Below, in pieces: positions 1,689-4,187 of a stretch of DNA of 41,865 nt. The notes under the pieces were generated by a model. That model was not told the origin of the DNA. It did not search any database and saw only the letters and a program-made list of their open reading frames with translations. Each line of letters begins with the position of its first letter. The first letter of the stretch is position 1. The stretch comes from a virus: positions 1 to 41,865 of IMG/VR virus record IMGVR_UViG_3300046512_000067. The stretch is one strand, 5' to 3'. Both the position numbers and the translations under genes were made by a program.

Positions 1689-1903
1689 CCAGAGCAGCTT
1701 TCCGCCAGGCCGACATGGAACGGATCTTCCGCGCCGCCAAGAGCGAAGGCATGGCCGTGACGATCGACATAAAGACGCTGGTTGTTACCGCTATCCCCGG
1801 AATCCCCAAGCCGGAATTGCTTGACACGACTACCGGAGGCGGCGGCAAGGTTCCATCGGGCAATCTTGCCCCTGATGGAAAGGAAGACTGGGATGAGGAC
1901 TGA
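1685..1903 (+). CDS. Small protein upstream of integrase; possible excisionase (inference)
   Basis: A 72-residue protein starting MTRAAFRQADMERI at an ATGA overlap with the HNH gene and overlapping the integrase start by 11 bases. An N-terminal helix (residues 4-22) is followed by a short beta-like segment (VTIDIKTLVVTAI) and a Gly-rich acidic tail ending EDWDED. From memory, similar small proteins with a QAD/QAE helix and an acidic, Trp-containing end often precede integrases in rhizobial prophages; this was not checked by search. The tight coupling to int makes a recombination directionality factor possible, but no classic excisionase helix-turn-helix can be pointed out. Confidence 0.65.
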   Translation: MTRAAFRQADMERIFRAAKSEGMAVTIDIKTLVVTAIPGIPKPELLDTTTGGGGKVPSGNLAPDGKEDWDED

Positions 1904-3035
1904 TAGGCCCGGTTATAAGTACCGGGACAACAAGGACGGCACCCGCGTCCACTACTGGGATCCGAAGAGGGCGGTAAAGGGTTCACCCACCGCCCTCTCG
2001 ATCGTCAGGCTCGCTGATGACCTGACAGACGACCAGATTGCCGAGGAATGCAAGAAGCGCACCGAGGCTCTCAAGGCCGAGCTCATCGATCGGGACACCC
2101 CGATTGAATTTGATGGCACGATCAAATCCCTGATCAAGCTCTACCGGCACGACAAGACGAGCACGCTGCACGGCGTGAAGCACTCGACCCGCATCCGGGA
2201 CTATGAGCCAAGCCTTCGCGTGTTGGAAAAGAACGTCGGGAAACGCCGCATCGATGCTCTCAGGGCATCCGACTTCAGGGAATGGTTCACCAATTGGCGC
2301 AAGAAAGGCCACAGAAGGGCGTCAGGCGCTGTCAAGCTCCTGCGGCTCATCATCAGCTATGGAGCGGGTGAAAGGCTTCCTGGATGCTCTCAGGCCCGAG
2401 AGATCCTCTCGGACATGCGTTTCGAGCAGCCACAGGCCCGTACGGTCGCCATGACCTACGAGCAATGCCTGGCGATCGTCAAGAAAAGCGCGGAGATGAA
2501 ATGCCCGTCGATCGGCTTCGTCGAGGCCGTGAAGTTCGAAACGGCACTGCGCCGTATCGATGTGATCGGGGAATGGGCGCCGCCGCCTGAAGGTGGAGAG
2601 TTCCGCTGGACCGGCCTAATGGCCAAGGACATCTCGAAAGATATGATCCTGACGCTCAAGACGAGCAAGACCGGTGCCGCGGTAGCACGCGATCTGAAGG
2701 GCTATCCTCTCGTTGAGGAAGCGCTGAAGGCCTACCGGATCCCGGATATCGGGCCTGTGGTCATCGATGAAGACTACGGAAAGCCCTACTGGGAGAACCG
2801 CTACACCGAAAAATTCAAGAAGGTGCGCGATGCGGCCGGCGTATCGAAAGACGTCTGGTCGATGGATTCGCGGGCTGGGGCAGTGTCGGAGACGGTGGAA
2901 GCGACAGGTTCGCTTGAAGCTGCCCGAGATTTGGCAACCCACACGACGACGAAGACGACGCGACGTTACAGCCGCGGCGATGGTTTGGAAGCAAGCCGGA
3001 AGGTAGCCGAGGCCAGAGCGAAAAACCGTCTCTGA
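1893..3035 (+). CDS. int: Tyrosine-type site-specific integrase
   Basis: A 380-residue tyrosine recombinase that would recombine attP with a tRNA-Gly gene. I read it from the ATG at 1893, inside an upstream-open frame, because MRTDRPGY lines up with the start of the HNH gene at 3224. Residues 1-64 form the probable arm-binding domain and about 75-165 the core-binding domain. The catalytic domain shows Arg220 (TALRRIDVIGEW), a Lys near 256-259 (TLKTSKTG), Arg327 (WSMDSRAG), His350 (LATHTT) and the nucleophile Tyr359 (RRYSR). The box-II HxxR His is Met324, a tolerated change in the family. It is the last gene of the rightward operon, and attP begins within its stop codon. Confidence 0.95.
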   Translation: MRTDRPGYKYRDNKDGTRVHYWDPKRAVKGSPTALSIVRLADDLTDDQIAEECKKRTEALKAELIDRDTPIEFDGTIKSLIKLYRHDKTSTLHGVKHSTRIRDYEPSLRVLEKNVGKRRIDALRASDFREWFTNWRKKGHRRASGAVKLLRLIISYGAGERLPGCSQAREILSDMRFEQPQARTVAMTYEQCLAIVKKSAEMKCPSIGFVEAVKFETALRRIDVIGEWAPPPEGGEFRWTGLMAKDISKDMILTLKTSKTGAAVARDLKGYPLVEEALKAYRIPDIGPVVIDEDYGKPYWENRYTEKFKKVRDAAGVSKDVWSMDSRAGAVSETVEATGSLEAARDLATHTTTKTTRRYSRGDGLEASRKVAEARAKNRL

Positions 3036-3060
3036 CACGGCGTGACACGGAGTGACACGC
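3033..3060 (+). repeat. Three tandem TGACACGG repeats, putative integrase arm-type sites
   Basis: TGACACGG occurs at 3033-3040 and 3043-3050, with TGACACGC at 3053-3060, a period of 10 bases (one helical turn). The first copy contains the integrase stop codon. They lie 26 bases before the tRNA-derived core. Repeated short sites flanking the core are the usual arm sites bound by the integrase N-terminal domain. Binding is inferred, not shown. Confidence 0.65.
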
Positions 3061-3085
3061 GGTATTGCTAAGTGGTTGAAAAGCT

Positions 3086-3133
3086 TGGAGCGGGTAGCGG
3101 GAATCGAACCCGCGTATTCAGCTTGGAAGACTG
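3086..3133 (-). other. attP: attP core: 3' half of tRNA-Gly(UCC)
   Basis: Read on the minus strand, this stretch is the 3' part of a tRNA-Gly. It holds the anticodon loop CTTCCAA (anticodon UCC), then the right anticodon arm GCTGA, a variable region, the T arm GCGGGTTCGATTCCCGC, the acceptor strand ACCCGCT and the encoded CCA. The 5' half is absent, so it is not a functional tRNA gene. It lies 50 bases after the integrase stop. Phage integration at tRNA genes typically uses a core equal to the tRNA 3' end, so that integration restores the host gene. The anticodon stem 5' side matches only partly, which marks the likely left limit of identity with the host. Confidence 0.85.
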
Positions 3134-3207
3134 TCAAAAACCTTAGTAAAAACAGCGTGCCGTTCCTCTCAAAACTTTTCCCGGGTGGTATAGTCCCACT
3201 CGGGAAC

Positions 3208-3215
3208 TGACACGG
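3208..3215 (+). repeat. Single TGACACGG site on the far side of the attP core
   Basis: The octamer TGACACGG recurs once at 3208-3215, 75 bases beyond the tRNA-like core, in the same orientation as the three copies at 3033-3060. This would be the opposite-arm integrase site. It also overlaps the GGAG ribosome site of the HNH gene that starts at 3224, so integrase binding and expression of that gene could interfere with each other. That link is inference. Confidence 0.5.
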
Positions 3216-3223
3216 AGATGAGC

Positions 3224-3844
3224 ATGAGAAGAGACCGCCCTGGCTATCAATTTAGGACCAATGGCGATGGCAGTGTAGCCCACTACTGGAACCCTCGAAG
3301 GGCGTCACGTCAATTTGGCGGAGAGGCTTTCCGTCTGCGGCTGCCAGATGGGCTTTCCGACGATGAGATCGCGGCAAGGTGCCGGGAACTGACGGACGAG
3401 TTGCGCCGTGGACGAGACGTCCAGACTGAGCGCCAGAGGAAAAGGCGGAACATCGCGGAGCAGCTATTCAAGATGTATAGGAAGAGAGCCCGGGAGATCG
3501 GGAAGGACTTCGCCATCACGGAAGAGTGTATCCATGAAGAGCTGCGAAAGAGCTCCGACAAGTGCGAGATAAGCGGCATCGAGTTCAACTACGATCCGCA
3601 GCCCCGAGGCACCAAGAAGTATTTCAAGCACCCCCAGCGCCCGAGCCTAGACAGGATCGACAACGCGAAAGGGTATGTGCTTGGGAATGTCCGGTTCGTG
3701 CTTCATGGCGTGAATATCGGAATCAATGAGTGGGGGCTGGATCACTACATCGCCGTCTGCAAGGCAGTAGCAGGACACGACCGAAGGGGCTTTCCGGATC
3801 TGTCATCAGCGGATGGAAAGTTGCTGGTATCGACAGATTGGTGA
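3224..3844 (+). CDS. HNH nuclease with integrase-like N-terminal domain
   Basis: A 206-residue two-part protein. The ATG at 3224 is chosen because GGAG (3214-3217) is 6 bases upstream, and because MRRDRPGY then aligns with the integrase start. Residues 1-62 match integrase residues 1-62: DRPGY, HYW and a P[KR]RA motif are shared, with 17 of the first 27 residues identical, and a LSDDEIA-type helix also matches. Residues 70-200 form an HNH-like nuclease domain: CEISG at 114, then PSLDRID at 140 and KGYVLGNVRFV. If the shared domain binds arm sites, the nuclease would be guided to the att region. No neighbour overlaps it. Confidence 0.85.
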   Translation: MRRDRPGYQFRTNGDGSVAHYWNPRRASRQFGGEAFRLRLPDGLSDDEIAARCRELTDELRRGRDVQTERQRKRRNIAEQLFKMYRKRAREIGKDFAITEECIHEELRKSSDKCEISGIEFNYDPQPRGTKKYFKHPQRPSLDRIDNAKGYVLGNVRFVLHGVNIGINEWGLDHYIAVCKAVAGHDRRGFPDLSSADGKLLVSTDW

Positions 3845-3859
3845 TTGCGACCAATATAG

Positions 3860-3879
3860 TCGTGTCACTTTGGACACGA
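3860..3879. repeat. Inverted repeat in the gap between the HNH gene and the next gene
   Basis: CGTGTC (3861-3866) and GACACG (3873-3878) form a 6-bp stem with a 6-base loop, extended by one A-T pair. No U-run follows, so it is a poor terminator. The arms contain the integrase-arm-like word GTGTCA/TGACAC in inverted form, so an additional recombinase or regulator site is possible. Confidence 0.4.
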
Positions 3880-3902
3880 TCTGTTCACGGTCAAATTAGA
3901 AG

Positions 3903-4187
3903 ATGGAAGAATATAAACCTAAGCATCTTTGGCGTGAGACGTGGCCTGGAGAAGGCCATCAGGACTTCGCGGCATGGGATGGGGAGGCGCCCGTCGGACG
4001 GATCAGGCTCGAGGAATCAGGTCCGATGAGTGGGCGATGGCATTGGTCCGGTAATGGGGGACCGAATGTCAAGCGACGGTTGGCGCCGAATACCGGCTAT
4101 GTCGCGACGGCTCGGGAAGCCTCTCGGATGGTCGAGGAGTATTATGATAGGCTGCTCGCCAACAATGTGTTAAGGCCCAGTATCTAG
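3903..4187 (+). CDS. Hypothetical protein, 94 aa
   Basis: A small protein of no named family. It has WDGEAPVGRIRLE around residues 25-37, a GRWHWSGNG stretch, then a GYVATAREASRMVEEYY helix. The layout (an Asp-Gly turn, a Trp-rich strand pair, then an alternating helix near the C-terminus) resembles small conserved proteins in rhizobial genomes. Its 3' end overlaps the convergent DUF982 gene by 18 bases, so it is the last rightward gene before the leftward late region. In a lysogen it would lie at one prophage end together with the HNH gene, so it may be expressed from the prophage. Confidence 0.65.
   Translation: MEEYKPKHLWRETWPGEGHQDFAAWDGEAPVGRIRLEESGPMSGRWHWSGNGGPNVKRRLAPNTGYVATAREASRMVEEYYDRLLANNVLRPSI

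Follow-up and report, generated by a model that had tools for sequence, protein, structure and literature searches.

Integrase, attachment site, and HNH gene of the window

The window, a 41,865-nucleotide stretch of viral DNA, contains a tyrosine integrase gene (1893–3035) and the gene of an HNH protein, P0002 (3224–3844), with a tRNA-derived attachment core between them. Both genes are on the plus strand, and their positions agree with the original prediction. The 380-residue integrase has a weak match to the Pfam family Phage_integrase, against which it barely scores, and belongs to a divergent group of integrases. In its box II, aspartate replaces histidine (WSMDSRAG), as is also the case in the integrases of L004–L007 (WNRDSRAG). 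P0002 is 206 residues long, with an alternative in-frame ATG start at 3218. Immediately ahead of the integrase gene, at 917–1279 and approximately 1266–1688 of the plus strand, are two more HNH-like genes, which are of a different, classical type (DHIIPEAL; AHMDHDE); similar genes precede the integrase genes of L127 and L129.

The left (P) arm of the attachment site consists of three TGACACG direct repeats with a 10-bp period (3033–3060, plus strand), the first of which starts in the integrase stop codon. TGACACGG is present at 3033 and 3043, and TGACACGC at 3053; the repeats are conserved among relatives of the window integrase. The core (3086–3129) is the 3′ part of a tRNA-Gly gene on the complement strand, as identified from its match to annotated tRNA-Gly genes. 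In the prophages L010, L012, and L014, the integrases of which are 75–83% identical to that of the window, the integrase gene end and the TGACACG repeats precede an intact tRNA-Gly(TCC) gene, with the integrase ending the prophage. Therefore, the window contains a phage attP with the order integrase, three P-arm repeats, core, and HNH gene. Contig L008 joins the end of the window to its start, so that the attP is in its phage form, unintegrated or circular. The L008 junction (window positions 1 and 41,865) makes the window a permuted circle or an integrated copy with no natural linear end. Arm repeats that start inside the integrase stop codon are found in several integrase lineages (in the window and after the integrase in L316, L004, and L007), each with its own motif: TGACACG, GGCTAACC, or GTAGGAAC.

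It had been predicted that the two genes lie on opposite sides of the attP core. This holds for the window, and the genes would thus be at opposite prophage ends; however, it is not a rule but a special feature of this lineage and of L093, the second lineage with the HNH gene past the core (L093:490–700: integrase C-terminus, tRNA-derived sequence, and HNH with an arm-like N-domain). In most pairs the HNH gene directly follows the integrase gene and attP lies beyond it; therefore, the general rule is a position beside the integrase and flush with attP. An assembly artefact has been rejected, because the independent contigs L001 (100%) and L002 (99%), as well as genomes of isolates (Mesorhizobium, Pararhizobium), contain the same or parallel pairs.

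The N-terminal domain shared by the integrase and P0002

Residues 1–63 of P0002 (3224–3412, plus strand), assigned from BLASTP, alignment, and a structure model, have a predicted β-β-(β)-α topology and correspond to residues 1–63 of the integrase (1893–2081, plus strand; BLASTP and alignment), where an arm-binding domain would be positioned. The integrase and P0002 are 39% identical over 89 amino acids (residues 1–86; BLASTP, 64.7 bits, E = 7e-17). At the start of the domain 17 of 27 residues are identical, the DDxIA helix aligns as well, and a shuffle test of the N-domain similarity yields z of approximately 27. The resemblance on which the original prediction was built is thus a real homology over residues 1–63. 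P0002 contains the N-domain only: the catalytic R-K-H-R-H-Y domain is absent, and there is no Phage_integrase match in Pfam. A model of the isolated 68-residue N-domain of P0002 has no significant match in Foldseek. Among the paired integrases, that of L185 is the only one to match an arm-binding family, weakly (Arm-DNA-bind_3 in Pfam, E = 0.005), and the match spans the stretch copied by its HNH neighbor. Therefore, the designation arm-binding is based mainly on the position of the domain in the integrase.

A PacI-like nuclease domain

The remainder of P0002 includes a putative PacI-like HNH (ββα-metal) nuclease domain (3443–3772, plus strand). P0002 belongs to no family in Pfam, NCBIfam, or PADLOC. 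Its earlier designation as an HNH protein is thus not supported by Pfam, but it is backed by PHROG endonuclease families and by PacI, the best match in both sequence and fold. Residues 47–185 match the PHROG endonuclease families 3322 (E = 1e-22) and 1035 (E = 2e-14), and a profile search with the family identified PacI (3ldy) as the best solved relative (E = 0.001). The AlphaFold model of P0002, with a pLDDT of 86, contains strands 140–144 and 156–160 and helix 161–170. Its top Foldseek match is PacI (probability 1.00, E = 0.016), and further plausible relatives are an HNH nickase (Gme), the HNH domains of Cas9, and T4 endonuclease VII.

Residues D143, Y151, N155, and N164 are invariant in 64 of 64 aligned HNH proteins, R144 is conserved in 63 of them, and 37 of the 38 HNH proteins paired with integrases retain the catalytic motif. 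The classical HNH histidine is replaced throughout the family (DH to DR), as it is in PacI, in which a tyrosine is positioned to serve as the general base (PMC4081073). The possibility that the loss of the histidine marks a dead nuclease has been rejected, since the DR is shared by PacI, which works with a tyrosine, and this tyrosine is invariant here. With residue roles assigned by alignment, the members of the family appear to be active nucleases whose site is of the PacI type.

Recurrence of integrase and HNH pairs

Pairs and relatives of P0002 were gathered by protein scans of viral contigs and their alignments, together with genome scans. The HNH-domain relatives comprise 143 nonredundant proteins. 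An integrase-type N-domain is present in 26 of the 39 that have a tyrosine integrase encoded within 2 kb, versus 3 of the 104 others (odds ratio 67, Fisher p = 9e-16). The three apparent exceptions can all be traced to a contig end or to a neighboring integrase fragment: the contig of L003 is circular, with a 126-bp end overlap, and its integrase ends approximately 130 bp before the HNH gene; L042 starts at the edge of its contig; and L093 has a C-terminal integrase fragment, tRNA-derived sequence, and the HNH gene in the same order as in the window. The concern that the integrase-type call is circular, because the cognate integrases belong to the reference set, has been rejected: 22 of 38 N-domains were still recognised after the cognate and similar integrases had been removed. 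L067 and L068 contain HNH relatives that adjoin an integrase and have a C-terminal AP2-like domain in place of any integrase-type N-domain.

There are 38 nonredundant integrase and HNH pairs, so that the fusion sought beside attP elsewhere was found to recur in many unrelated integrase lineages. In 33 pairs the genes are in tandem with the integrase first, and the gaps in 30 of these are −313 to +220 bp; tandem pairs with such short gaps are probable operons. The N-domain of the HNH protein matches that of its own neighbor integrase in 24 of the 38 pairs (p < 1e-3), and the mean cognate score is 74.2, compared with 32.1 for randomly re-paired proteins and a maximum of 46.1 in 20,000 permutations. 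In 17 of the 24 matching pairs, no integrase fits the HNH N-domain better than the cognate one, and in 14 the cognate integrase is a closer match than the N-domain of any other HNH protein. More than ten N-domain subtypes can be distinguished, each fitting its own integrase. On the basis of these comparisons, P0002 is placed in a recurring group of free-standing HNH nucleases of phages, whose N-domain is a copy of that of the neighboring integrase.

The other 14 pairs have no significant match to the neighbor integrase. In four of these (L048, L198, L270, and L153), an integrase other than the neighbor is the better fit to the HNH N-domain. The HNH protein of L003, a 70% ortholog of P0002, has an N-domain of the window integrase type next to an integrase with another type of N-domain. 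These five mismatches suggest that integrases or nucleases have been swapped. In L003, compared with L126 and L309, that integrase is also without TGACACG repeats, in keeping with an integrase swap or a transfer of the HNH gene.

The N-domain of P0002 has no significant tblastn match in 50,697 phage records, the comparison of P0002 with plasmids matched HNH-domain relatives only, and 398 genomes from the order of Mesorhizobium contain only two relatives at E ≤ 1e-10. Among sequenced isolate phages, the fusion of the N-domain with HNH is all but absent.

Capture and exchange of N-terminal domains

HNH cores that are 47–54% identical may carry unrelated N-domains, each fitting its own integrase, as in L102 and L185 (54%) or L028 and L040. 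Distances among HNH N-domains follow those among integrase N-domains (Mantel rho 0.56), whereas the corresponding value for HNH cores and the catalytic parts of integrases is 0.31. The mismatches between cores and N-domains, together with the difference between the two correlations, point to both co-descent and repeated exchange. Paired N-domains are approximately 30–60% identical, and the pooled identities at the three codon positions are 0.57, 0.62, and 0.38 (1,098 codons), of which the first two are somewhat inflated by the amino-acid-based alignment. Since the third position is near random, the N-domain copies are old and held at the level of amino acids. Both halves of the protein look selected, because N-domain identity persists despite near-random third positions and because the catalytic motif is so widely retained. 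This speaks against the earlier suggestion that the HNH gene is a relic of an integrase duplication.

The same observations bear on a passive origin, in which an integrase duplication fused with a chance HNH gene and the product was retained by chance. In its favor, integrase and attP regions are recombination hot spots, and the window has two other HNH genes just upstream of its integrase. However, the odds ratio of 67 linking this domain to an integrase neighbor, the N-domain subtypes matched one by one to their own integrases, and the constraint on both the N-domain and the catalytic motif make such an origin very improbable.

Insertion of the HNH gene at attachment sites

The HNH-less relative G426 (L305) has an attP approximately 93% identical to that of the window, with 92.9% identity in the left flank (2715–3149) and 93.7% in the right flank (3872–4154). 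In G426, the core is followed after 33 bp by the P′ arm site CGTGTCA and then by a homolog of the 94-residue P0003. In the window, the P′ arm sequence CCAATATAGxCGTGTCACT is at 3851–3867, past the HNH stop codon, and the native P′ site itself (3861–3867, minus strand) is approximately 730 bp from the core. Therefore, approximately 700 bp have been inserted between the core and the P′ site. The boundaries of the cassette (3150–3850, plus strand) are defined to within about 20 bp. A small conserved gene of phrog_12188 (3903–4187, plus strand) follows, which is the first gene to the right of attP in HNH-less relatives. The cassette brings its own arm-type site, TGACACGG at 3208–3215 of the plus strand, near the HNH start and overlapping the HNH ribosome-binding region.

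This layout could also be that of an accessory recombination factor, which would compete for arm sites, bridge them, or nick DNA and so control integration and excision in direction or timing, or would repress the integrase gene and itself. The N-domain of P0002 should compete for arm sites, one such site overlaps the HNH start region, and the cassette alters the spacing from the core to P′. However, the HNH gene is absent from 16 of 16 searched records with related integrases, showing that recombination can do without it, and a binding factor needs no conserved nuclease site. A role in recombination is thus improbable, and the proposal that the HNH protein acts in excision has found no specific support.

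Other lineages differ in the same way from their HNH-less relatives. In Mesorhizobium L029, the HNH gene is between the integrase gene and a tRNA-Cys attachment site and contains two TGCCACAC sites within its 3′ end; in the 81% relative L392, which has no HNH gene, the integrase gene is accompanied by a single GTGTGGCA arm site and by that same tRNA-Cys. In L326, L328, and L329, the HNH gene separates the integrase gene from an attachment site at a gene read from its translation as mutS, and it is absent from relatives with 94–98% identical integrases (for example, L327). The corresponding slot of the mutS prophages L330, L338, L333, and L341 contains different small cargo. In L069, the arm-like repeat TCTACAA, present in six copies against a null maximum of three, begins at or inside the 3′ end of the HNH gene, as do strong arm-like repeats in L091, L150, and L102.

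Within the 12 kb compared, nearly all that G002 (L002/L038) has in common with the window is a 3.3-kb block, 94.7% identical, that includes the integrase gene, attP, and the HNH gene. The shared block fits the spread of a module, and ordinary modular exchange would account for it too. Because integrase modules are swapped between phages anyway, the presence and absence of the HNH gene is no proof of homing.

Proposed function of P0002

We infer that guidance of the HNH protein to arm sites, as had been predicted, is the best explanation of its shared domain. With moderate confidence, based on sequence comparisons, P0002 is interpreted as an attachment-site-directed HNH nuclease that serves homing, exclusion between phages, or both, and is addressed by a borrowed arm-binding domain of an integrase. 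The N-domain would bring the nuclease to arm-type sites in attP, attL, or attR, which in the window have the sequence TGACACG, and the HNH domain would then cut close by. The targets would be phages with the same integrase specificity that lack the HNH gene, such as G426. Repair templated by the HNH-bearing genome would introduce the nuclease gene, together with the nearby integrase gene and attP, into the cut phage, which would amount to attP homing; alternatively, the rival phage would be destroyed. The carrier might be spared because the insertion shifts the arm site away from its adjoining sequence, moving P′ from 33 to approximately 730 bp from the core, and in other lineages because the HNH gene parts the integrase end from the P arm. 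Such self-protection is a conjecture, since arm sites persist in the HNH-bearing attP; the insertion does separate the core from the P′ arm site. When an integrase module is replaced, the nuclease could acquire a new N-domain and would thereby be re-aimed.

The nuclease could instead be purely a weapon of prophage exclusion, cutting attP or attL and attR of incoming or resident phages that share the attachment niche, with copying of the gene being incidental. The overlapping or near-zero gaps between the two genes imply co-expression, an address common to the carrier's own integrase would select direct competitors for attB, and the HNH gene lies in an accessory position at the end of the prophage, where L330, L338, L333, and L341 have other cargo. 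By contrast, neither P0002 nor two other proteins tested have a PADLOC match, apart from one weak match to a PtuB-type HNH (E = 0.003), and insertion within or flush against attP beside the arm sites is predicted by homing and is not needed for exclusion. Exclusion with incidental copying is therefore considered unlikely.

The wider reading of attachment-site-directed cleavage is put forward more tentatively. A mobile PacI-type HNH nuclease may repeatedly, at least about a dozen times, have captured the addressing domain of the adjoining integrase; as a phage strategy, it would cut the attachment sites of the closest competitors and spread as an attP-homing gene, taking the integration module along. 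A shared attachment site makes phages competitors for a single niche, and DNA-level conflict over attachment sites is little known. If the proposal is correct, a nuclease with the address domain of an integrase would serve this contest directly, as a weapon or as a means of homing, and would help to explain the ready movement of integration modules. The pairs would also provide a natural set of matched DNA-binding domains for many arm-site sequences, with predictable targets, and could be used as site-specific nucleases with a specificity readable from the partner integrase.

Comparison with known systems

Tyrosine integrases such as lambda Int and Tn916 Int have arm-binding N-domains (the Arm-DNA-bind families of Pfam). 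The domain copied by P0002 has the same position in the integrase, but in P0002 it is fused to a nuclease that lacks a recombinase domain. PacI (PDB 3LDY/3M7K) shares with P0002 the catalytic stretch VDR(S/I)D...GY...N.R.....N of a ββα-metal HNH; however, it is a stand-alone type II restriction enzyme, whereas P0002 is an integrase N-domain fusion encoded at a phage attP. The PHROG 3322 and 1035 endonucleases include the HNH part of P0002, but most of these relatives have no integrase-type N-domain and are encoded away from integrases.

The IPA-HNH homing endonucleases of phage ICP1 are free-standing HNH proteins with AP2 DNA-binding domains, and their description brings up integrases for satellites only (PMC10448857). 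Like P0002, they combine HNH with a DNA-binding domain and are products of accessory genes at boundaries of exchange. They differ from it in that their AP2 domain is C-terminal and their genes are near essential genes, whereas P0002 has an N-terminal domain matching the adjoining integrase and is encoded at attP. The full-text literature searched, which does not cover most subscription journals, contains no description of an HNH protein that copies the N-domain of an adjoining integrase or is encoded in attP. HNH nucleases, free-standing homing endonucleases, and HNH-AP2 fusions are thus known, and what appears to be new is an HNH protein that carries the N-domain of its neighbor integrase at attP.
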